Below, piece by piece: positions 6,609 to 64,000 of a stretch of DNA of 64,000 bases. The notes under the pieces were generated by a model. The model made no database searches and was not told where the DNA came from. It saw nothing but the letters and a program-made list of their open reading frames with translations. The first letter of the stretch is position 1. Each line of letters starts with the position of its first letter. The stretch comes from a virus. Made by a program: the position numbers and the translations under genes. Location: IMG/VR virus record IMGVR_UViG_3300037258_000590, positions 146,384 to 210,383 of that record; one strand, given 5' to 3'.

Positions 6609-7178
6609 GTGATGAAGACCGTGCAGACCGTACCTGATGCGCTGGCCAGCGTGAACGCAGCTCAAAGCGCACCCGTGCAATTCGAGCCAGGGCCTCTCCA
6701 TACACTGGTCGCACTGCGTCACATAGCCCGTGAGCTGACCGCGCTGCGTGACCTGGCCGCAGCGGTGCGAGCCGCGCTGGCCGTACCGTCTGACGCAGAT
6801 GAGCTGGCCGACGCGGCGGACCGGGAAGCACGCAGCATGGCCCCGCCCGTACCCGGTGTTACCCGCGTGGGCGGCTACGTGGTCCGGGCACTCATCACGA
6901 CCCCCGGCCGGAACACCGCATGGTTCGTCGCGGCCGAAGGTGACAGCGAGCACAGCACCGGACGCTGGTCCACCTGGCGGGCCGAGCAGGATTCCACCGG
7001 GCACCTGCTGTTCAGCTGCGCCCGGTTCTTTAACGTCCGGGCGGGGCTGACCGCGGCGGATATCCAGGCTGACTTGCACAATGAGCCTGAAACCTGGCGC
7101 CCCGACAGGCCGCACAACCGCACCGCGGCGCTAGCCAGCCTGGCCGGACGAGCGGGCATCACGCCGGCCGCGGAATAG
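6609..7178 (+). CDS. Hypothetical protein, 189 aa, member of a repeated family
   Basis: GTG 6609 or ATG 6612 after ACAGGAGACTGATGC. Helical N-terminus, then ARSMAPPVPGVTRVGGYVVR and a WFVAAEG...WSTWRAE...ALASLAGRAG pattern that also occurs at the C-terminus of the 389-aa protein at 12734-13903 (ARTMAPPVPDVTR, WWVAAE, RAG) and more weakly at 13936-14673. The family is not otherwise recognised. Its TAG is part of leader 9. Confidence 0.8.
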   Translation: MMKTVQTVPDALASVNAAQSAPVQFEPGPLHTLVALRHIARELTALRDLAAAVRAALAVPSDADELADAADREARSMAPPVPGVTRVGGYVVRALITTPGRNTAWFVAAEGDSEHSTGRWSTWRAEQDSTGHLLFSCARFFNVRAGLTAADIQADLHNEPETWRPDRPHNRTAALASLAGRAGITPAAE

Positions 7179-7239
7179 GCGAAACGCCCCCGCCAGCCGG
7201 GGTTTTTCCGGCCGCGCTATGACAGGAGAACAGCACACC
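7177..7239 (+). promoter_or_regulatory. Leader element 9 (short form)
   Basis: AGGCGAAACG at 7177, inner hairpin CCGGGGTTTTTCCGG, then ATGACAGGAGAACAGCACACC before ATG 7240 (read as GACAGGAG plus 12 bases). Outer right arm and second hairpin are absent. Confidence 0.55.
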
Positions 7240-7626
7240 ATGGACGAAACCCCTGGCCGAACCGAGGTGTTCCGCGTCCCGGACAACACGCCGGCTCCAG
7301 ACCAGGCGTTCTACACAATCACCCCCGAAGATGCCGGCCAGCACGAAATCCGCACCACCGCCGGGGTTATCGAAGTCCCCGATGGCATCTCTCCCGCCCG
7401 GACGGGACCTTTCCAGCTCGCAGACGCCGGAACGCGCCTGTACGGCATGGCGAGCCAAGCCTGGCCCGGCACGGGCTGGTACTGGACGACCACGCCTCAT
7501 GAAACCTGCGCAGTATGCGGAAGCCAGCTAGACCATACCGGCATCCGCGGACGCAACGATGAGTTCGTGCACCTGGATGACGACCACGAGGATCACGCCC
7601 CGGTCCGGCTCCGTTCTGAGCAGTAG
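7240..7626 (+). CDS. Putative zinc-binding protein, 128 aa
   Basis: Start 7240 has GACAGGAG upstream; the ATG at 7219 is inside the ribosome site. The C-terminus has CAVCGSQLDHTG and HLDDDHEDH, giving two Cys and several His suited to a zinc site. N-terminal part (FYTITPEDAGQHEIRTTAG) is probably beta-rich. No family recognised. Confidence 0.75.
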   Translation: MDETPGRTEVFRVPDNTPAPDQAFYTITPEDAGQHEIRTTAGVIEVPDGISPARTGPFQLADAGTRLYGMASQAWPGTGWYWTTTPHETCAVCGSQLDHTGIRGRNDEFVHLDDDHEDHAPVRLRSEQ

Positions 7627-48642: not shown

Positions 48643-50025
48643 TCACCACCCCACGACGGTCAGCTGCTTCACGGCCCGGGTGACGGCGGTGTACAGCCAC
48701 CGGCTGCGGATCTCGCCCGGGGGCGGCCAGCTCTCCTCGATAACCAGCACGTTATCCGCGGCACTGCCCTGAGATTTGTGGGTCGTAAGGGCGTAACCCC
48801 AGTCGAACAAGGCGATACTGCGGTCGCGGATCGAACGGGCGGCTTCCGGCAGCTGGCCGAACGGGGCGGCGGCGACGGCGCCTTCCCAGGACAGGTCCTG
48901 GCCGTCCATGTCGACCGCCAGCTGCCAGGCGTCCGTCCCGTTCACGCAGGCGGCGCCGCGGTTCTCGCGGACGGTGCCGCGCTGGCCGTTGAACAGGCCT
49001 TCGCCGTAATTGTTGCGCAGGCAGATCACGACATCGCCGGGCGCCGGCGGCCCGCTGCGGCCGTGCCAGGCGCGCATCGCGTCGTTGTGCCAGGCCCGGG
49101 TGGCGTTGGTGGCGCACAGGATCATGTTCGCGTCGCCCGGGTGCAGGCCCTCGTGCCCCATCCGGTCCGGCGTGGTCTTCACGCAGGACGGCCCGTACCA
49201 GCCGCCCGGGATGTACCCGTGCTCACGGGCCCAGCGGGACATGTTCAGGATCGCCATGCCGTCCGGGTCGGCGGCGCTCTGCCGGTGGATTTCCTCCAGC
49301 CGCAGGTCCGGGCTGGACATCAGGCTGAACGCGGACTGGACGGGCGGCAGCTGGCCGTGGTCGCCGATGGCCAGGACGGGCACGCCGTGGCCGGTCAGGT
49401 CGGCCCACAGCTGCTCCGGGATCATGGACGCCTCGTCGGCGACCACCAGGTCGAGCCCGGCCAGGGGGTCGGGTGCCGGGGTGAAGCTGACCTGCTGCCG
49501 GGCCGGGCACGGCGGCCTGATTCCCGGCATGTCTTTGCGCAGGCGGTGCGCGTCGCACGCCGTTTCCCGGCCGCGCAGCTCCAGGCCGGATTCGGCGCAC
49601 AGCGTCATCACCGCCGGGCGGTACAGCAGCCGGTGCAGCGTGGACACCACCTCGGCCCGCGCGCCCAGGCCGCCGAGCGAGCCCCGCAGGACATGCACGG
49701 CCTTGCCGGTGTACGCGGTGTACGCGATCTTCGCGCGGTTGAGCACCGCGGGCAGCAGCCCGGCCACGGTGGTCTTCCCCGTGCCGGCCAGGCCGCCCAG
49801 GATCAGCGGGACGCTGCCGCCGTCCTGGTGCCACGCGGCGATCTCGCCGAGCGCGTCACGCTGGCCGGCCGACAGCTGCCGCAGCCGCTCCGCCTGCCCC
49901 CGGCTGAGCGTAACCGGCCACGCGCCCCAGCCGCGGAGCATGTCCCGCACAGCCGGGTCGGTATCCGGCGGCGGCAGCCGCAGCTCGCTGTCCGCCGCGG
50001 GGGCGGCCTCGGCAGGCGCGGTCAT
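48643..50025 (-). CDS. RecD/Dda-type SF1 helicase, 460 aa
   Basis: Walker A GGLAGTGKTTVA, motif Ia TAYTGKAVHVL, Walker B LVVADEASMI, motif III GDHGQLPPV, motif V-like TTHKSQGSA and VI YTAVTRAVKQL define an SF1B helicase of the RecD2/Dda group. Phage Dda-type helicases act in replication start and recombination. N-terminus is short. ATG 50025 lies inside a 35-bp tandem duplication that also carries the previous gene's stop, so an alternative in-frame start further upstream is unlikely. Confidence 0.85.
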   Translation of the reverse strand: MTAPAEAAPAADSELRLPPPDTDPAVRDMLRGWGAWPVTLSRGQAERLRQLSAGQRDALGEIAAWHQDGGSVPLILGGLAGTGKTTVAGLLPAVLNRAKIAYTAYTGKAVHVLRGSLGGLGARAEVVSTLHRLLYRPAVMTLCAESGLELRGRETACDAHRLRKDMPGIRPPCPARQQVSFTPAPDPLAGLDLVVADEASMIPEQLWADLTGHGVPVLAIGDHGQLPPVQSAFSLMSSPDLRLEEIHRQSAADPDGMAILNMSRWAREHGYIPGGWYGPSCVKTTPDRMGHEGLHPGDANMILCATNATRAWHNDAMRAWHGRSGPPAPGDVVICLRNNYGEGLFNGQRGTVRENRGAACVNGTDAWQLAVDMDGQDLSWEGAVAAAPFGQLPEAARSIRDRSIALFDWGYALTTHKSQGSAADNVLVIEESWPPPGEIRSRWLYTAVTRAVKQLTVVGW

Positions 50026-50075
50026 GACGGGCTCCAGGGCGCCTCGGCGGGCGCGGTCATGACGGGCTCCAGGGC
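50006..50075 (-). repeat. 35-bp tandem duplication over a stop/start junction
   Basis: Two copies (50006-50040 and 50041-50075), differing by one base, each with the sequence ...GGTCATGACGG... that carries the ATGA overlap of the DUF1643 stop and the helicase start. The period is not a multiple of 3, so only the second start leads into the helicase. Confidence 0.85.
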
Positions 50076-50596
50076 GCCAGCAGCGCGTCGTCCGGGACCC
50101 GGTGACGGCCGCGGGCCAGCGGGTGCACCGGGCTGCCGTCACTGGTCGTGCCCAGGCACGCCAGCGTGACCCCGGCGGCGGTAAGCACGGCGGTCACTTC
50201 CCGGGCCCTGGCGGCGGCCAGCGGGTGCGCACCCCAGCAGGCGACGACCGGGCCGTCCGCTGCGGCCAGGCCGGCCAGCCATGCGTCGTTGTCCGGGCCT
50301 GCCGGGTCGGTGCCCGCCTTCAGGGCCGCCCGCAGCGCCGCCGGGTGCGGGGAGCGCAGCGCGTACAGGTTGAGCACGCAGATGCCGCGGCAGCCCTCCC
50401 GGCGCGCGAACGCGCACATCCGGCGGATCGTCGGGTCATCGGTGCTCGCGTCGGCGGTGGACGGGTTCAGGCCGATCCAGGCCATCACCGGCCCCCAGGT
50501 ACCCCAGCGGCGGTTCAGCACGTACCGGTACAGGCGGTCGTCACTAAGCACGGTTTCCGCCGCGCATCCGGGCGCCGGGCAGCTGGCCGCGGTCAT
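50057..50596 (-). CDS. DUF1643 protein, 179 aa
   Basis: AETVLSDDRLYRYVLNRRWG with GPVMAWIGLNPSTADASTDD and PTIRRMCAFA is the DUF1643 signature; length fits. Found in phages and mobile elements, function unknown (sometimes near restriction or toxin genes). ATG overlaps the preceding 26-aa ORF stop. Confidence 0.85.
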   Translation of the reverse strand: MTAASCPAPGCAAETVLSDDRLYRYVLNRRWGTWGPVMAWIGLNPSTADASTDDPTIRRMCAFARREGCRGICVLNLYALRSPHPAALRAALKAGTDPAGPDNDAWLAGLAAADGPVVACWGAHPLAAARAREVTAVLTAAGVTLACLGTTSDGSPVHPLARGRHRVPDDALLAPWSPS

Positions 50597-50801: not shown

Positions 50802-51383
50802 CACTGACCTCCTGTCAGGTCTCTTACCGTATGCAACACCAACAGCGTACGCGCTAATCCCGCGCCAGCCCGGCTGCGGCTGCTGCCGGGCCACTGGCGC
50901 CTGGCGAACAGCTCCAGGTACGGGCCGGGACTGACTTGCTCGGCAAGCCTGCAGAACTCCTCCGGCTTGCGCGAATGACTCCCGCGCGGCCACTCGTACC
51001 AGCTGGGCATCGCCGCGCTGGCCGGAACCATCGGCTTGCCGCGCGTGGCCAGCAGGCAATGCTCGGTGTTGTTCCGCACGTAGTAGCCCATCCCCGGCCC
51101 GCGCTTGCACCAGGTGATGAGCGTCATCGGGGTGAAGCCCCAGGCGCGGGCAACGTCATACGCGGAGCCGAGCAGCCGGTTGACGCCCCAGATCCACAGG
51201 TGCGCGTCATCGGCAGCCAGTTCCCTGACAGGCAGCGCGGCAATGTCGTCCACGGCCATCACCGGGTAGTGCCGTTGCGGCTTGCCCCGGTGGTACGTGC
51301 TGCGCCCGTGCATGGCCGGCCACCGGCGGGTCAGCCAGTATGCACCGGTACCCGCCAGGCGGAGACTGCGGCATCGAGATCAT
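50801..51383 (-). pseudogene. MT-A70 family adenine methyltransferase, frameshifted in its catalytic motif
   Basis: ATG at 51383 overlaps the polymerase stop (ATGA). The frame reads SPPGGYRCILADPP and would continue W-P-A-M-H-G-R-S-T-Y-H, but an extra G at 51323-51324 turns DPPW into DPPV and shifts frame. From 51313 onward the second frame is intact (HYPVMAVDDIAALPVRELAA; HLWIWGVNRLLGSAYDVARA; EHCLLATRGKPMVP; SWYEWPRGSHSRKPEEFCRL; PYLELFARRQWPG), the MT-A70 signature of N6-adenine methyltransferases. Could be a real mutation, a programmed shift or a sequence error. Confidence 0.8.
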
Positions 51384-52642
51384 GAGCTGTCCGGCCACGC
51401 CTGGAACGGCTCAACGGCCTTGGCTTCGATCGGCACGCCGAAGATGTCTTCGAACTGCTGGTTGTGCATGCATTCCTGCAGTACCAGGCGCGCCTCGGCG
51501 GCTTCGGCAGCGGGCACGAACATGAACAGCTCGTCATGGATGGGCAGAATCGGGTACCTACCCCACCGGGTCTGGCCCCAGCGCAGTGCACCATCCACGA
51601 GGATTTCCCGGGCCGTTCCTTGTATACCATAATTACCAGCTGCGTGCGGACGGCCTTCCGGCAGCCATATAGTCCGGCCAGAATACGCTTTAAAAGCCCG
51701 GTTACCGGCTTTTACGTATGCGCGCATCTGCTGGTCCCAGTCGGTGAACACCGGGGCTATCTGCGCGAACGCGTAATGAATGGCGGCCCCGGATTCAACC
51801 GGAATCCCGACCTGCCGGGCACCTGATTCTGCTCCCCCGCCGAACATTTTACTGAAGATCACGCGTTTGCAGTTATACCGGTCTTCGACAGTGGCGTCTG
51901 GGCCGAATGCCATTCTCGCGGCCATCCAGTGCAGGCCCTTCTGGTTTTTCCCGCAAGCCTGCGGGTCGCACGGGTCGTGCCCGCAAGCCTGGCACCGGGT
52001 GGACAGCTCGGCGGCGAGGAGACCCATGTCACCGGACAGGGCAGCCCCGACCCGGATTTCCACGCCTGCGAAGTCGGCACTGATCCCGGCCATGGGCACG
52101 CCCCAGGGGCTGGTGTGCTCGTCGTCGGCGGTGACGCAGGCCCGGATACCGCCCTGGCGGCTGAACTGCATGCCGTTCGGACGTCGGCAGCTACATCGGC
52201 CAGTGTCGGCTTCCAGTGTGTAAACGGTAGGGCGCATCCGGCTGTCGCCGCGTTCGCACAGCAGGTTCAGCGGTTCGAGCAGCAGCCCCAGGGTCGTGAC
52301 GTCATGCCGGTATTCCAGGATCTGGCGCAGCAGCTCGGCGTGCTCGTAACCGGGATCGCCGGCCAGGCGTTCCAGTTCGCCCTTAGCCGCGGACAGGTTG
52401 CCGGCTTTGGTCGTGCCGAGCGGGACGCCGAGCGCGACCAGGGCGGCGGGAACCTCTTTGGTGGATGACGGATTGCTGATGGCGGGACACAGCTGGGTGA
52501 CCCGGGCCTGGGCGGTGTCCCGGGCGGCGGCGTACTCGGCGATCTTGGCGCCGGTGTGGTGATGATCGAGCCTGAACCCGGTCAGGGCGACCCGGGCGCA
52601 CATGGCCTGGAACTGCCGTTCACGCCGGAGCACGTCAACGCC
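51380..52642 (-). CDS. Family A DNA polymerase (palm and fingers only), 420 aa
   Basis: ATG 52642 with GGAGACCAGTT upstream. Motif A SADFAGVEIRVGAALSGD (about 185-202), motif B CKRVIFSKMFGGG (about 257), motif C ILPIHDELFMFVP (about 370), and a CQACGHDPCDPQAC insert (about 217-230) suited to zinc. Residues from VALTGFRLDHHHTGAKI form the usual thumb start. No 3'-5' exonuclease residues are present; that domain ends the preceding protein. It follows the primase fusion by 16 bases, so both are made together. Confidence 0.85.
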   Translation of the reverse strand, partial: GVDVLRRERQFQAMCARVALTGFRLDHHHTGAKIAEYAAARDTAQARVTQLCPAISNPSSTKEVPAALVALGVPLGTTKAGNLSAAKGELERLAGDPGYEHAELLRQILEYRHDVTTLGLLLEPLNLLCERGDSRMRPTVYTLEADTGRCSCRRPNGMQFSRQGGIRACVTADDEHTSPWGVPMAGISADFAGVEIRVGAALSGDMGLLAAELSTRCQACGHDPCDPQACGKNQKGLHWMAARMAFGPDATVEDRYNCKRVIFSKMFGGGAESGARQVGIPVESGAAIHYAFAQIAPVFTDWDQQMRAYVKAGNRAFKAYSGRTIWLPEGRPHAAGNYGIQGTAREILVDGALRWGQTRWGRYPILPIHDELFMFVPAAEAAEARLVLQECMHNQQFEDIFGVPIEAKAVEPFQAWPDSS

Positions 52643-52658
52643 CATAACTGGTCTCCGT

Positions 52659-55600
52659 TCAGCCGGCCGGGGGACGGGGGAGCACGCGGAGCACGGCGGC
52701 CAGGTCCAGGACGTCGGATCCGGCGTAGCGCAGGAACGTCTCGCAGTTCTTGCGGACCTGGGCCCAGCCGGAACGCTCCAGCGGGGTCTGCGGCTTGGTT
52801 TCCACGAGCCAGCCGCCGGTTTTGAACAGGGCGTTCTTGGCGACTTCAGCGGGCGGACTGACGGCATACGGGCCGAGCAGGTCGGCGGAGAGTTTCTTCA
52901 GCTGGCTTTCGTCCGATCCTGCCAGGGCCGGATCGGCGAGCTTGGCGATAAGCACGGAGTCCACCATCCGGTCCCACAGCGAGTCCGCGTCGGCCAGGCC
53001 GGCCCAGGCCAGCGGGATCAGGTCGGCGATTGCGGAATGGGCGTGCAGCGTGCGTGCCTGGGCGAGCAGCCCGCGGACCGCTTCGGCTTGCGCCGGGTCA
53101 TCGGGGTCGAAGACGGCGGCCACGTGCTCGCCGCCCGCCTGGATCAGCCGGAGCTTGTATTCGACGCGGCCCGGCCCGAATCCGGTGTGCTCCACGTCCA
53201 CGCACAGCCCGTCCAGGTACTGGCTAGCCAGCAGGACCGCCTCATCCGGCGTGCACGGCACCACGAGCGGCGGGCCGCCTGCCGGGTCACGCGCCACGAT
53301 GACCGGCAGCTGGTGCACCGGGCCTTCAGCGGCGGCCAGCTTCGCGGCTTTTTCCGCGGCCTTGCGAAGCTGGGCGCGGGCCTTAGCCGTTCCGGCGGCG
53401 GGCTCGGTAACCGCCGGTGAAGTAACAGCCAGTGACGACCCCGGGTTTTCCGCCGCGGGGGGGTCCGGCACCGGCTCTATGGAGGGATGGGGGGTATGGG
53501 GGGTTGAGCCCTTACCCCCCTGCATGTGCGTGTGTGTGTGCGTGTGTGTGTGCGCGCGTGTGTGCGCTATAAAGGTTGACTTACCTTCCATACCCTCCAT
53601 ATGGATAGTTTCATGGATGGTTTGACCTGCAGTATTTCCGTTCATGGATGGTTGAGGAGAAGGTCCTGAACCATCCATGAACCCTCCATTTTCAGGTTCA
53701 GACCCTCCATGCGGACGAGCAGAACCACCGCTCGCGCCGCTCAGCGCGGCCGGTCCCGGCATGAAAACCTGCGGAGGCCTGATCCGGAGGAATCTGTAGT
53801 TCGCATCCGTCCGTTTATATGGGGGGTAGCCCAGTTCGGTCAGCCGCCGTCCCCAGCGTGTTTCCGAGGGCATCGTCGCCGGATTCACCTGCATGCTGCG
53901 GCAACTCTCCGTGAACGCTCGGTAGAGATCGCGGCTCCTGGTGCCGCGCCCGGAGTCCTCGCATTCCTCCCGCAGCCAGCTCAGCACGAGATCCTGACTG
54001 GTCATGATCTCCAGGGCTGCCTGGGCCGCAGAATCTGGCGCAGCCTCGTTCCCGGCGCTGTGCGGGTCGGCCAGCCAGCGGGCGGCCTCGATCATCATGA
54101 GGGCCAGCACGCCGGGGGCCTCAGCCCGCCACGGGGCCCCGTGCTCCGCGCCGATCGCGGCCCTGGCCGCCCGGACCGCGCCCGGGTTGCCGTCGCACGG
54201 GATCAGCCGGACCCGGCGGCGGATCGCCGCGTCGGTCAGCACCGGCTCGTGCTCTGGGTTCGCGGTCAGGATCAGCGTGTGCGTGGTGGGAAACGTGATC
54301 GGGTTCTCCCCCATCCGGTTGCCGGTCAGGTCGGCCCCGCCGGTAATCTGCTTCAGCCGCTCGGTAGCCAGCGACCCGGTGCGCGGCGCCTCATCGATGA
54401 ATGACAGCCGCCGCCCGCGCAGCGCGTACACGATCGAGGCGTGCGACCGGTCAGCCGGGGCGAGCAGCCGGGCGTCGGCCACGTGGGCGTAGCTGCCCAG
54501 CACCGACATGAGCAGCATGAGGATGCTGGTCTTGCCTTTATCCGTATCGCCGAGCAGGATGGGCAGCGCCTTGTCTGAATAGCCGGTGAACGAGATGGCC
54601 AGGATGCGCAGCGCCCAGGCCCGCACCGCGGCATCTGGCCAGACCGCGGCCAGGAACGTCTCCCACAGCGGGACCGGCCGCAGTTCCGGGACGACGCCCG
54701 CGCTGTGCAGGTGCGGCGTCCCCGGATCGGTCCACCGCGAGACCGCCGGACCCTGGTCCGAGTTCCGCAGGTCGTACGGGCGCCCGCCCGCCCACAGGAT
54801 CTCCCGTTCGGTGTCCAGCGCGGCCAGCTCCACCGCGGAGGGGTGCTGCCCGGCGGCGACCTGCGCGTTCATTTTCCCGGCGACCGCGTTGGCCGAGGTG
54901 TTGCTCATGAACCGCTTGCGCCGCTCGGCCTGCAGCCGCGGCGGGCTGCCCTGGGCCGCATCCGGGTCGCCGGGCGGCATGAGCACGCTCACCAGGTCGA
55001 CGCCCCATTTGGCCAGGTCGCCTTTGATCACGTCCCATTTACCCGGGCCGCGCCTGATCCACGCGCCGGCGTCGGGAGCGTAGCGCAGTACCGGCCAGGT
55101 CCGGCCCAGCACCTCACGGCCCAGCATCCCGTCCAGCCCGGACTGCGGGTCGAACGGGGTGATGCCGATGCCGTCGTCGCCCCACGGTGACCAGGACTGC
55201 GGCTCCTCGGGCGGCGGGGGCAGCTCGTCGTCATCGGTGCCCGGCGGGACGTCCGGGGCAGGCGGCGCGAACCGGGGCAGCCCGCGCCCGAACACCCGGC
55301 ACGGATCGGTTGCCTGCGGGACCGCGCCGTGAGCGGTAACCGCCTTGCGCGCGGCGGTGGTGATCATCTCCGTGAACTCGGCGTGCCGGTCCCGGCCTTC
55401 CCCGGCGGTCATCTCGTTCCACAGCGTTTCCAGCTGCGCGATGACAGTGCCGTAGCCGCCGTGGCCTTCGGCGCTCAGCTGGACCAGCTCGTAGATGCTC
55501 CTGGTCATCAGGTCGTGCCGGGAACCCGGCTGCACGGCCGTGACCTCAGCCAGCGCCGCCGCCGCCGCGTGCGCCATGTCGGTGCACACCTGCCCGGCTT

Positions 55601-56273
55601 CGGCGTTCAGGTAATCCAGCAGCTGCCCGGCTTCTCCGGGGCTGGCCGCGGCCGGGCTCGGTGCCGCGGCGCCCTCAGCCAGGCCGGCGACCCAGCTTTC
55701 CGGCAGGGCGGCCAGCTCACCCGGGCGGGGAACCCTGCCTTCCAGCCGTACGCCGTCCGGGCCGTACCACGCGTACGCCGTGCCGGTCTCGTAGTGCGGT
55801 GACGGCGCGACGACGGCGTAGCGGTGATGCCGCTGGATGATCTCCGCATCAGGGCCGAGCTGGGCGGCGTAGCGCCGGGGCGGCACCCGGAAGAACCAGA
55901 TGCGGCTGGGCTGGCCCTGACCCCGCGCGGTGGAGGAGTACGTCGGCGGCAGCACTCCCCACTCGGTGATCCTGGCCGCCAGGGTGGCCGCGCCGTGCTT
56001 CGCGGCGCCGCCCTTGACGTACTCATCGACGTCGATGCCGATCACGCCGTCCGGCATCCGGAGCGCGATCGAGGCACCTGGCTGCTGTTCCGCCCAGTCC
56101 GCGATGTCTTCGGGTGCGGTGTCGCGGCCGTCCGCCCCGGTGAAGCCGCCGGGCGGCGGGAACTTGGCTTCCGGCGGCACCGGGATCACGCATTTCCACC
56201 CGGCCAGGAAATAATCCGCGCACGCGCTTTCGTATACTCCGGCTGGCGGGGCGAGGTTCTGAGCGTCGTTCAC
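52659..56273 (-). CDS. Primase-polymerase / SF3 helicase / 3'-5' exonuclease fusion, 1204 aa
   Basis: N-terminus (about 10-200): FLAGWKCVIPVPPEAKFPPP, GIDVDEY, SRIWFFRVP and RYAVVAPSPHYETGTAYAWY match the bifunctional primase-polymerase domain (catalytic Asp pair in GIDVDEY). Residues about 570-690: Walker A GDTDKGKTS, FIDEAPRTG, LILTANPEHEP, RRRVRLIPC of SF3/D5-type helicases. A low-complexity linker (about 830-940), partly from simple-sequence DNA (AHTRAHTHTHTHTHMQ), leads to CVDVEHTGFG, LHAHSAIADLI and RYAGSDVLDL (about 1020-1190), a DEDD 3'-5' exonuclease as normally fused to family A polymerases. GTG start at 56273 is uncertain. Confidence 0.8.
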   Translation of the reverse strand: MNDAQNLAPPAGVYESACADYFLAGWKCVIPVPPEAKFPPPGGFTGADGRDTAPEDIADWAEQQPGASIALRMPDGVIGIDVDEYVKGGAAKHGAATLAARITEWGVLPPTYSSTARGQGQPSRIWFFRVPPRRYAAQLGPDAEIIQRHHRYAVVAPSPHYETGTAYAWYGPDGVRLEGRVPRPGELAALPESWVAGLAEGAAAPSPAAASPGEAGQLLDYLNAEAGQVCTDMAHAAAAALAEVTAVQPGSRHDLMTRSIYELVQLSAEGHGGYGTVIAQLETLWNEMTAGEGRDRHAEFTEMITTAARKAVTAHGAVPQATDPCRVFGRGLPRFAPPAPDVPPGTDDDELPPPPEEPQSWSPWGDDGIGITPFDPQSGLDGMLGREVLGRTWPVLRYAPDAGAWIRRGPGKWDVIKGDLAKWGVDLVSVLMPPGDPDAAQGSPPRLQAERRKRFMSNTSANAVAGKMNAQVAAGQHPSAVELAALDTEREILWAGGRPYDLRNSDQGPAVSRWTDPGTPHLHSAGVVPELRPVPLWETFLAAVWPDAAVRAWALRILAISFTGYSDKALPILLGDTDKGKTSILMLLMSVLGSYAHVADARLLAPADRSHASIVYALRGRRLSFIDEAPRTGSLATERLKQITGGADLTGNRMGENPITFPTTHTLILTANPEHEPVLTDAAIRRRVRLIPCDGNPGAVRAARAAIGAEHGAPWRAEAPGVLALMMIEAARWLADPHSAGNEAAPDSAAQAALEIMTSQDLVLSWLREECEDSGRGTRSRDLYRAFTESCRSMQVNPATMPSETRWGRRLTELGYPPYKRTDANYRFLRIRPPQVFMPGPAALSGASGGSARPHGGSEPENGGFMDGSGPSPQPSMNGNTAGQTIHETIHMEGMEGKSTFIAHTRAHTHTHTHTHMQGGKGSTPHTPHPSIEPVPDPPAAENPGSSLAVTSPAVTEPAAGTAKARAQLRKAAEKAAKLAAAEGPVHQLPVIVARDPAGGPPLVVPCTPDEAVLLASQYLDGLCVDVEHTGFGPGRVEYKLRLIQAGGEHVAAVFDPDDPAQAEAVRGLLAQARTLHAHSAIADLIPLAWAGLADADSLWDRMVDSVLIAKLADPALAGSDESQLKKLSADLLGPYAVSPPAEVAKNALFKTGGWLVETKPQTPLERSGWAQVRKNCETFLRYAGSDVLDLAAVLRVLPRPPAG

Positions 56274-56661: not shown

Positions 56662-56879
56662 CAGCTCCCCGCCTTCGCCTTCGCCTTCGCCTTCGCCTTC
56701 GCCTTCGCCTTCGCCTTCGCCTTCGCCTTCGCCTTCGCCTTCGCCTTCGCCTGCTGCCTGGATGTTCCCGGCTCCGGCCGGAACAGCACGCGGCAGCGCG
56801 GGCACCAGATCTTGCCGCAGTCCGGGCACCGCCACCAGCCGGCCGCGGCGTATGTCCCGCACTCACGGTGAACAGTCAT
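56661..56879 (-). CDS. Zinc-ribbon-like protein with (Lys-Ala) repeat tail, 72 aa
   Basis: ATG overlaps the RuvC-like stop. RCPDCGKIWCPRCRVLF (C-x-x-C ... C-x-x-C) gives one zinc ribbon, then PEPGTSRQQA followed by a Lys-Ala run (13 GCCTTC units on the + strand) ending in GS. Hexamer copy changes would alter tail length without frameshift. Tail basicity suggests DNA or RNA contact, unproven. Confidence 0.7.
   Translation of the reverse strand: MTVHRECGTYAAAGWWRCPDCGKIWCPRCRVLFRPEPGTSRQQAKAKAKAKAKAKAKAKAKAKAKAKAKAGS
56671..56748 (-). repeat. 13 x GCCTTC simple-sequence repeat
   Basis: Perfect hexamers from 56671 to 56748, flanked by GCCTGCTGCCTGGATGTTCC (56749-56768), which also occurs at 56465-56484 where the array has only one unit. 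Lies in the C-terminal codons of the 72-aa gene at 56661-56879. Confidence 0.95.
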
Positions 56880-60151: not shown

Positions 60152-62035
60152 CTACTTGATGCCGCCGAGGATGTCTTTGACCAGCCGCCGGTCCCGTACG
60201 AACTGGCCGAGCATGCCGGCCTTTTCCCGGAGGCGCTGCCTTACCCTGTCTTCCACCGTCCCGCGGGCCACCACGTCGATGATCTCCACGCAGTCGTGCT
60301 CCTGGCCGAGCCGGTGCGCCCGGTCTTCGGGCTGCGTGCCGTGATCCAGCTCCCAGTCCCGTTGCAGGAACACCACTGTGCTGGCCGCGGTCAGCGTGAT
60401 CCCGGTGCCGCCGACTTTGGCCATGGCCACGATGACGTCCAGCTTGCCCGCCTGGAATTCCCCGATCGCGGCCTGCCGGGTCCGGTTCGTGATGCCGCCG
60501 CCGATCCCGGCGATGTACCCGGTCCGGTAGCCGGCGTCCTGGCAGTATTTCCCGGTGATCATGGCCAGCTGCCGGGACGCGGTAAAGCACACGACCTGCT
60601 GGCCGGGCCGTTCGGCCATGATGCCCAGCAGCGACTCGGCCTTCCAGCTCGGCGCTTTCAGCGTGACCGCGTATTTCGCCGTCATCAGGCCGGTCACCGG
60701 GTCCAGCTCCTCGGTGCGGGTCACGTCGGCCGCGGAGCTGGCCAGCTGGGACAGCCGCATCAGCTGGACCAGGACCGACATGACCGGCAGCTCATCGCCG
60801 TCTGGCAGCTGGGCCAGCATGTCCTCCTCCATGCTCCGGTACGCCTTGACCCACTCGTCCGGGATCTCGGGCTTGCGCACCGAGTAGATCTTCGGCGGCA
60901 GCTGCGGCAGCACGTCGGCTTTAGCCACCCGTCGCATCTGCCGGTCCATGATCGCGAAGAACTCGGTCTCGGCGGCCGGGTTCAGGCCGGTGATCCGCTC
61001 GTTGTACTCATCGGTGATCCGGGCGCAGAACCTGGCCACCATCCGCTCTTTGGACGGCCAGGAGGCCGGGTCCATCGCTTCCAGCATCGGGTGCACGTCA
61101 CCCGTGTCGTGCTTGATCCCGGTACCGGACAGGCCGGTGACGGTGGCGGCATGCCGGGCGACCCGGCGCAGCGCGAGGGACTGCTTGCTCGCGTTGTTCA
61201 TCGTCAGGTGGAATTCGTCCGCGGTCACCGCCGCCGGGCGCAGCCTTACCAGCGGGCCGCGCATGTCCGCGGCGTCGATCCGGAGTGTCGCGTACGTGGT
61301 GATGAACACGGACTCGCCGGGGGGCGGCCCCTTCGGCCGCTCTGCCCTGCCGAACCGCTGCGGTCCCCGGTGCAGGACAGGTTCCGGCCAGTCCAGCCCC
61401 CAGGCCGCGATCTCATCGATCCAGGCCTGCCCGACTTCCCAGGACGGCACGACGATGAGCAGCGGGAAAATCCCGGTACCTGCCTTGCGGCGAGCCTGCA
61501 GGCCGAGCAGCATCGTAGCCGTCTTGCCCACCCCCGGGTCATCCAGGAGCAGGAATTTTCCTTCGGCGGCGATCTGCGCGGCACCGTCCAGCTGGTAGTC
61601 CCGCGGGGTCCGGGTCACCCAGGGCGGGTACAGCCCGGCGGGCAGCGGCGGAACCGGGCTGGTCTGGCGGACCGTCTCGGCGATGGTCCACTCGGCCAGC
61701 CGCGGCTGCGGTTCCCAGGAGAACCCCGGGTAGCCGTTGAAGCTGAACCCGAGCTGGACGACCGTCGCCCAGGTGGCGGGCACGATCGCCGCATCGGTAG
61801 GACGCCCGTCCTCCTGCACCAGCTTGACGGCCGGGGTCAGGGTGCGCAGCCGCGCCGCTATCTGGTCCAGCTCCCAGTCGTCCCCTTGAGCCACCAGGAC
61901 AATTGACTGATTATCAGGGGTCAGCTCACCGAACAGGACCGCTACCACGTCAGGACCAGCTCCCGGCCGGCGGAGCACGTGCACCACGGGCCTCGCCGTG
62001 CTTCCCGGCGCCGCTGCCGGAATCCTCTGAGCCAT
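60152..62035 (-). CDS. SNF2-family DNA helicase/translocase, 627 aa
   Basis: Motif I DDPGVGKTATMLLG, Ia LIVVPSWEVGQAWIDEI, II TADEFHLTMNN (DEFH, not DEAH), III VTGLSGTGI, IV VVCFTASRQLAM, V VGGTGITLTAAS and VI QPEDRAHRLGQ define an SNF2-type ATPase, the group common in phages for replication, recombination or chromatin remodelling. N-terminal ~120 residues are a distinct alpha/beta part. Start 62035 is inferred; the ribosome site is weak. Confidence 0.85.
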   Translation of the reverse strand: MAQRIPAAAPGSTARPVVHVLRRPGAGPDVVAVLFGELTPDNQSIVLVAQGDDWELDQIAARLRTLTPAVKLVQEDGRPTDAAIVPATWATVVQLGFSFNGYPGFSWEPQPRLAEWTIAETVRQTSPVPPLPAGLYPPWVTRTPRDYQLDGAAQIAAEGKFLLLDDPGVGKTATMLLGLQARRKAGTGIFPLLIVVPSWEVGQAWIDEIAAWGLDWPEPVLHRGPQRFGRAERPKGPPPGESVFITTYATLRIDAADMRGPLVRLRPAAVTADEFHLTMNNASKQSLALRRVARHAATVTGLSGTGIKHDTGDVHPMLEAMDPASWPSKERMVARFCARITDEYNERITGLNPAAETEFFAIMDRQMRRVAKADVLPQLPPKIYSVRKPEIPDEWVKAYRSMEEDMLAQLPDGDELPVMSVLVQLMRLSQLASSAADVTRTEELDPVTGLMTAKYAVTLKAPSWKAESLLGIMAERPGQQVVCFTASRQLAMITGKYCQDAGYRTGYIAGIGGGITNRTRQAAIGEFQAGKLDVIVAMAKVGGTGITLTAASTVVFLQRDWELDHGTQPEDRAHRLGQEHDCVEIIDVVARGTVEDRVRQRLREKAGMLGQFVRDRRLVKDILGGIK

Positions 62036-62701: not shown

Positions 62702-64000
62702 TTACTGCTGCGGTGGCGCGCCCTGCTGGGCGCCTTGCTGGGTGAGAAGGCGGTTCATGAGCGCTTCCCGGCGCGCGGACATCTGCCCTGGCCCGCCAGG
62801 CGGATCCTGCGGGTACTGCTGAGCCGCGGCATACCCCTGGGGAGAGCCTGGCGGCAGCCCCTGGGGAGAGCCTGGCGGCAGCCCCTGGTGCGCTGCCGCG
62901 GCGGCCATCCCGGCCTGCGTGGCCATCGCGACCTGGGCACCCGGGCTCACGTACTGCCCCGGGTTGCCCTGCAGACCGGGCTGACCTTGATACGACGGCT
63001 GCTGAGGCGCCGTGTTCGCGTCAGCCTGGTACTGCTGCTGGTACTGCGGCTGCCCCTGATCTGGCGGCGGAACCTGATACTGCTGCTGGTACTGCGGCTG
63101 CCCCTGATCTGGCGGGGGAGCCTGATACTGCTGCTGGTACTGCGGCTGCCCCTGATCTGGCGGGGGAGCCTGGTACTGCGGCTGGTACTGCGGCTGCCCC
63201 TGATCTGGCGGCGGAACCTGATACTGCTGCTGGTACTGCGGCTGCCCCTGATCTGGCGGGGGAGCCTGGTACTGCTGCTGGTACTGCGGCTGCCCCTGAT
63301 CTGGCGGCGGAACCTGATACTGCTGCTGGTACTGCGGCTGCCCGTTAACCGGCTGCTGCGGGTAGGACTGCTTACTGGCTGGGTGCTGCCCGCTGGCGGT
63401 CGCATCCGGGCGGCGGTAGACGATCGCGTACTGCTTGGCCGCGTTCATGCCGGGTACCTGCCGGTAACCCGTGAACTCGATCTGGATCCAGGCACCGCTT
63501 TCCGGCACCAGGTTCCCGTGCTCATCCGGCGGGGCCTGCGCTTCGGCCATGGCTCGCGCCAGCTCGTCTTTGGCCTGGCCCTTGACGTACCAGGCCGCCC
63601 TGCCGTCCGTGAACAGCTGGCTGGGCTGAACTTGCAGCGGCACGATCATGTGCCATTTGAAGGATCCGTCCCGGTAGGTCTGTGCCTGCCCGGTCTGCAT
63701 GTTGGTCTGGATTTGTATATCCGCGTCTGTTAGGGGGCGGGCGACGATTCCTGCGATCTTCTGGCCGGGATTCGTAAAAAATTTGCCGAGTGACGCCCCG
63801 GCTGCGGCGGGCTGGTCGAAGAACCCGCCGAGTGTGCCCCGGGGGCGCGGCGGCCCTTGCGGCTGCCCCTGGGGAGGACCGTAGCCCTGCCCCTGGGGAG
63901 GACCGTAGCCCTGCCCCTGGGGAGGACCGTAGCCCTGCCCCTGGGGAGGACCGTAGCCCTGCCCCTGGGGAGGACCGTAGCCCTGCCCCTGGGGAGGACC
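62702..64000 (-). CDS. OB-fold ssDNA-binding-like protein with two repeat arms (partial, 5' end off the window)
   Basis: The frame is open to the right edge, so the start is missing. Order: N-terminal GPPQGQGY repeats (63869-64000), LGGFFDQPAAAGASLGKFFT, then PGQKIAGIVARPLTDADIQI and QTYRDGSFKWHMIVPLQVQ, AAWYVKGQAKDELARAM, IQIEFTGYRQVPGMNAAKQY, the strand pattern of actinophage OB-fold-type DNA-binding proteins; then six QPQYQQQYQ(V/A)PPPDQG repeats, a Gly/Pro-rich PPGSPQGLPP part and a basic end. Probably a single-stranded-DNA-binding protein for this replisome; confirmation needs the missing start. Confidence 0.75.
   Translation of the reverse strand, partial: GPPQGQGYGPPQGQGYGPPQGQGYGPPQGQGYGPPQGQGYGPPQGQPQGPPRPRGTLGGFFDQPAAAGASLGKFFTNPGQKIAGIVARPLTDADIQIQTNMQTGQAQTYRDGSFKWHMIVPLQVQPSQLFTDGRAAWYVKGQAKDELARAMAEAQAPPDEHGNLVPESGAWIQIEFTGYRQVPGMNAAKQYAIVYRRPDATASGQHPASKQSYPQQPVNGQPQYQQQYQVPPPDQGQPQYQQQYQAPPPDQGQPQYQQQYQVPPPDQGQPQYQPQYQAPPPDQGQPQYQQQYQAPPPDQGQPQYQQQYQVPPPDQGQPQYQQQYQADANTAPQQPSYQGQPGLQGNPGQYVSPGAQVAMATQAGMAAAAAHQGLPPGSPQGLPPGSPQGYAAAQQYPQDPPGGPGQMSARREALMNRLLTQQGAQQGAPPQQ
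63029..63348 (-). repeat. 48-bp tandem repeats, Gln/Tyr/Pro-rich
   Basis: About six and a half near-perfect 48-bp units, each encoding QPQYQQQYQxPPPDQG (x is V or A). Base changes fall mainly at that x and in a QYQPQYQ variant. In frame, so copy changes keep the frame. Confidence 0.9.
63869..64000 (-). repeat. 24-bp tandem repeats, Gly/Pro/Gln-rich (continuing off the window)
   Basis: Units reading GGTCCTCCCCAGGGGCAGGG then CTAC encode GPPQGQGY, at least five copies, reaching the window edge. The first unit near 63869 has diverged to GPPQGQPQ. Confidence 0.9.

Follow-up and report, generated by a model that had tools for sequence, protein, structure and literature searches.

A probable phage single-stranded DNA-binding protein with disordered Gln/Pro/Gly/Tyr-rich arms on both sides of its predicted OB-like core

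Main finding

The gene that runs off the end of the 64,000-nucleotide window (positions 146384-210383, the terminal part of a virus record of 210,383 bp; its genome is called G000 below) encodes a protein that is, in our judgement from sequence and structural models, very likely a phage single-stranded DNA-binding protein (SSB). The source is a large virus of actinobacteria. The assignment relies on the predicted fold, the annotation within the family, the SSB-like C-terminal tips of relatives, the gene context and the lack of a Pfam SSB. Two low-complexity arms flank the core. The variant is real and conserved, was probably selected for its composition, and belongs to a phage SSB family that has received little annotation.

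The complete gene and its two arms

The gene and its parts are as follows.

62702..64000, minus strand: SSB-like gene, reading frame open at the 5' end, 432 of 502 codons in the window
L005:128-337 (opposite end of the record), minus strand: remaining 5' 70 codons of the gene, recovered by joining the ends
63839..64000, minus strand: part of the N-terminal arm within the window, GPPQGQGY repeats (Tandem Repeats Finder, TRF; protein repeats)
63863-64000, minus strand: 24-bp tandem array of the N-terminal arm (TRF: 5.8 copies, 100% match, score 276)
63404..63838, minus strand: OB-like core of about 145 residues, distant phrog_1911 member (profile match, AlphaFold2, Foldseek)
62705..63403, minus strand: C-terminal arm, Q/P/A/G/Y-rich, predicted unstructured (composition, AlphaFold2)
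63023..63343, minus strand: 48-bp tandem array of the C-terminal arm (TRF: 6.7 copies, 94%, score 572)
62826..62888, minus strand: minor 24-bp repeat, QGLPPGSP, in the C-terminal arm (TRF)
62738..62776, minus strand: predicted C-terminal helix SARREALMNRLLT (AlphaFold2, conserved family motif)

The first-pass annotation stated that the gene continues beyond the window and called for the upstream sequence. The gene does continue: the 70 further codons at the record's other end complete an open reading frame of 502 residues, which begins with GTG and is preceded by a strong Shine-Dalgarno sequence, CAGGAGGAGTACAC. The two ends of the record are identical over exactly 127 bases, inside the 24-bp repeat, which suggests a circular map broken within that repeat; 127 bases would be a length typical of an assembler k-mer overlap. 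Since the break falls in the repeat, the true copy number of the N-terminal array is uncertain. The join itself is sound, because a relative, L007, shows this gene order as well, with a closely similar and uninterrupted N-terminus, on a single contiguous contig of 139.6 kb, which rules out a frame or assembly artefact; the starts of L007 and G000 are homologous (MTYPQQGYG vs MNYPQQGYG). The joined frame contains no in-frame ATG, GTG, TTG or CTG between codons 1 and 171, so that the N-terminal arm is translated if the whole core is. An untranslated N-terminal arm is thereby ruled out.

The N-terminal arm (124 residues) consists of 31% Pro, 29% Gly, 21% Gln and 11% Tyr and has no acidic residue, and the C-terminal arm (233 residues) of 31% Gln, 20% Pro, 11% Ala, 10% Gly and 8% Tyr; together they hold six Arg/Lys in about 357 residues. 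The repeats described earlier, GPPQGQGY upstream and six QPQYQQQYQ(V/A)PPPDQG downstream, both in tandem DNA repeats, are recovered by TRF and by counting in the protein. The full gene has nine complete, perfect GPPQGQGY units, eight of them identical in DNA, with one synonymous base change. The 48-bp array encodes QPQYQ[Q/P]QYQ[V/A]PPPDQG in six complete copies and a partial one. Among the complete copies four codons vary, and at two of these the change is synonymous. Both arrays are products of tandem DNA duplication, which was recent, given the near-identity of their units. The protein is a clear outlier in its genome: Q+P+G+Y reaches 0.98 in a 60-residue window, and the next value among 226 non-overlapping reading frames is 0.60. 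AlphaFold2 leaves the arms unstructured (pLDDT about 35-50) except for a lone short C-terminal helix (409-421). Predicted disorder combined with spaced sticker residues, a feature of condensate-forming disordered regions, is found in the arms.

The core and its family

The open frame matches the phrog_1911 profile with an E value of 1.2e-12, and L007 with 2e-15 in one search and 5.8e-12 in another. When the whole 432-residue frame is run through hmmscan, the E value is only 0.13, probably because of the low-complexity arms. The AlphaFold2 model of the core, built on a shallow alignment of 20 relatives, has a pLDDT of 87.2 and a pTM of 0.80, and its order of strands and helices is OB-like. The OB-type beta barrel and helix of bacterial SSB are present in this predicted core, the matches to PDB structures being weak: the best Foldseek hits are mostly RPA, bacterial and mitochondrial SSB and gp32, all with E values of 0.07-0.4. 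The match in BFVD to the "SsDNA binding protein [Gordonia phage Parada]" is much clearer (E 3.9e-7, probability 1.00, TMq 0.70). A sequence search of the PDB with the protein returned nothing meaningful. The earlier description of an OB-fold, ssDNA-binding-like core thus holds as a prediction, by AlphaFold2 and Foldseek, of an OB-like core of the ssDNA-binding type within a phage replication block.

The family is listed as "unknown function" in PHROGs, and relatives of the core are nearly all "hypothetical" in GenBank; one of them, gp47 of the Arthrobacter phage PeggyLeg03, carries the annotation "ssDNA binding protein". The G000 protein has no match to PF00436, the Pfam SSB family, and no separate canonical SSB was found elsewhere in the genome. 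A search for PF00436 found no SSB in nine family-bearing records and was positive in 11 of 14 controls. The C-terminus of G000, ...REALMNRLLTQQGAQQGAPPQQ, lacks the acidic DDDIPF tip. SSB-Ct-like tips are confined to other family members: ends of the -DVPF, -EPPF or -MPPF types close 8 of 18 unarmed relatives, a count that reduces to three lineages and is given without a probability, since most of these sequences are related and not independent. Among the papers searched, none treats phrog_1911 as an SSB family or describes a phage SSB with two arms. No experiment on any phrog_1911 member was found either, which counts against the explanation that we favour below.

Gene neighbourhood

The SSB-like gene belongs to a replication block, in which a gene for a Cas4-type exonuclease precedes it and one for an SNF2 helicase follows.

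G000:C1:569-3451 (L005:569-3451), minus strand: Cas4/RecB-type exonuclease, phrog_1674, upstream gene
60152..62035, minus strand: SNF2-type helicase, phrog_62, downstream gene (an arrangement shared by relatives)
52659..56273, minus strand: primase/polymerase-type replication protein, phrog_1156, same block
51380..52867, minus strand: family A DNA polymerase, phrog_17
48643..50142, minus strand: Dda/RecD-like helicase, phrog_325

G000 has the order exonuclease, family member, replication genes that goes with phrog_1911. In most of the loci compared, the exonuclease adjoins the SSB-like gene or is found a short way upstream (Aminay, Krili, Reyja, PeggyLeg03, L007, L015, L039, L045, L046 and the Labedaea locus L066), and the SNF2 helicase lies downstream of the armed gene in L007, L015, L039, L044 and L046.

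Phage exonucleases often come paired with annealing proteins, and the nearest conserved neighbour of this gene is such a nuclease; the protein might then be an annealing or mediator protein of recombination instead of a replication SSB. We consider this very improbable, since the OB-like fold and the SSB-Ct-like tips of relatives indicate an SSB, and primase, polymerase and helicases share the block; an SSB may, besides, serve both roles.

Several other features of this region were observed. The exonuclease is apparently split by two inteins, the first directly ahead of a conserved Cys (GPSEIGSA / CDRQVVGKF); the L007 copy has none and that of L045 apparently one, at the first site. Between exonuclease and SSB lies a CTGAGA microsatellite of 19 copies (L005:349-463), which ends just before the Shine-Dalgarno sequence and is possibly an expression-tuning repeat. 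Another perfect array of a hexamer, CGCCTT with 13.8 copies (window positions 56670-56752), precedes the primase gene on that gene's strand, and a TG-rich repeat (window positions 53525-53566) encodes (His-Thr)n in the primase frame, ahead of its exonuclease-like C-terminal part. On the Labedaea rhizosphaerae chromosome contig L066, the gene that follows the two-armed SSB (6805-7521) resembles, by eye, a DNA polymerase sliding clamp, and an SNF2-like helicase comes after it.

Outside the window, the genome carries a CRISPR array (G000:C1:94144-97133; L061:14144-17133) with 20 copies of a 36-nt repeat and spacers mostly of 30-42 nt. It directly adjoins a gene for a 550-residue Cas12f/TnpB-type protein (Pfam Cas12f1-like_TNB, 5.9e-17; PADLOC Cas12u4, 8e-40). 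Three spacers compared with viral contigs gave no exact 22-nt match, and a blastn search of phage records with the array returned no hit.

Conservation of the arms

Both arms occur also in L007, L012, L013-15, L039, L044, L045 and L046, and at two loci in actinobacterial genomes: L065, in a Jatrophihabitans MAG, and L066, in Labedaea. The latter two were found by scanning genome contigs with the L039 protein; no match came from scanning with alignments A2 or A3. One of two plasmid searches gave a weak, probably chance match and the other none. The disordered Gln/Pro/Gly/Tyr arms that the first-pass annotation placed on both sides are therefore part of the protein and kept in relatives. In the core tree, all armed proteins fall into one clade (support 98/99), of which L025, with a different N-terminal extension, is a divergent member. 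Within this clade the N-terminal arms measure 46-124 residues, their Gly content varies from 0 to 29% and their sequences cannot be aligned in detail, but across eight lineages they contain 11-15% aromatics, 7-15% tyrosine and 0-2% Lys/Arg, and their charge stays near zero despite the turnover in length and sequence. The end of the C-terminal arm is conserved as a motif, [GDQ][LM][STD]...ALL..[LM]T, in most of the clade.

It may be that this is an ordinary SSB whose arms are passive spacers or tethers, grown longer as GC-rich repeats slipped during replication, and with no role in self-association. The recent expansion of the arrays is in line with this, as are the absence of such arrays from L007, whose core is 75% identical, and the many other tandem repeats in the genome, coding and non-coding. 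However, unrelated arm sequences have kept their high tyrosine and near-zero charge in eight lineages, drift in a genome of 68% GC would not give Tyr and Gln, and no loss of the arm is seen within the single clade of armed proteins. We therefore regard passive tails as a possible but rather unlikely account. Since the make-up of the tails was kept while their sequences changed completely, the tails probably do something: we read selection as acting on arm composition and on the end helix, and the repeats as passing products of slippage. Against this, selection may tolerate the arms instead of favouring them.

What the arms may do

The arms had been called prion-like. The label is a poor one, because prion domains of the yeast type are rich in Asn and Gln and poor in proline, and the arms have 20-31% proline, about 1-2% Asn and 21-31% Gln. 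The SSB of E. coli, whose condensation depends on its oligomeric state, offers a closer comparison. Its disordered linker, rich in Gln and Gly, has 56 residues, of which two are aromatic and two basic; it drives condensation and is required for it (PMC12143593). Aromatics make up 8-11% of the G000 arms vs 3.6% of this linker, that is, two to three times as much; Gln is similar, as is Gly in the N-terminal arm, proline is higher and the basic fraction smaller. A beta-turn comparison with the E. coli linker was also made, a crude one that used Chou-Fasman values. By this analogy, self-association or condensation through the arms is plausible, while the few Arg/Lys, which limit cation-pi contacts, and the high proline, which favours solubility, both speak against it.

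The idea proposed earlier, of a replication factory seeded by the phage SSB, here taken to mean that the two-armed protein would phase-separate on exposed ssDNA, has in its favour this comparison and the Tyr-bearing disordered arms on both sides of the core. The arms are proline-rich, however, and ssDNA inhibits the condensation of E. coli SSB (PMC11947617), so that an ssDNA-nucleated factory is not the default expectation. We consider it improbable; by analogy, a storage or clustering role would be more likely than an ssDNA-nucleated droplet.

The explanation that we favour, with some reserve, is that of the phage's own SSB with a second, self-associating tail. The OB-fold core would coat ssDNA during replication and recombination, alongside the Cas4-type exonuclease and the SNF2 helicase. 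The C-terminal arm would be the usual disordered SSB linker, whose short, conserved, amphipathic end helix probably docks partner proteins, and the N-terminal arm, particular to the armed clade, would be a second disordered tail. The near-uncharged arms, with tyrosines evenly spaced among Gln, Gly and Pro, would most likely act by composition, through many weak Tyr/Gln/Gly contacts that tie SSB molecules locally to each other and to partners, at least in clusters.

A bolder proposal, which we find rather doubtful, is that this actinophage clade evolved its SSB as a two-armed condensate scaffold, in which an added Tyr/Pro/Gln arm at the N-terminus and the SSB linker would together concentrate exonuclease, helicase, primase and polymerase in a replication compartment that has no membrane and also lacks the protein shell built by nucleus-forming phages. 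As for a nucleus-type jumbo phage with tubulin, this candidate was rejected, as a search limited to tubulin found none.

Comparison with known systems

Members of phrog_1911 include gp65 of Angelica (a cluster K mycobacteriophage), gp65 of Aminay, gp15 of Krili and, more distantly, gp47 of PeggyLeg03. Like these phages, G000 has a homologous core, an exonuclease upstream and a C-terminal tail of low complexity whose end is conserved; unlike the small phages of this family, the G000 clade has an N-terminal arm, and its C-terminal arm is much longer and repetitive. Hundreds of mycobacteriophage records list the phrog_1911 protein as "hypothetical"; the results are evidence that it serves these phages as SSB, an idea that is directly testable with M. 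smegmatis phages. The armed clade is also a natural experiment, in which one clade has a second disordered arm whose composition is kept while its sequence drifts, and arm swaps could probe its function.

The best named structural match, the Parada ssDNA binding protein (BFVD A0A411BY27), shares 21% sequence identity with the G000 protein. With bacterial SSB (E. coli, M. smegmatis), G000 has in common, by prediction, the OB-fold architecture, the Gln/Gly/Pro-rich disordered linker and the conserved C-terminal end; it differs in having neither a PF00436 match nor the DDDIPF tip, and in its extra N-terminal arm and greater tyrosine content. Tyrosines spaced among Gly, Gln and Pro are also found in FUS-type prion-like domains, in the tails of annexins A7 and A11 and in cephalopod rhodopsin tails. 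Compared with FUS, the G000 arms are low in Ser and Asn, high in Pro and set in a viral ssDNA-binding context, and the likeness is one of composition, for which we claim no homology.
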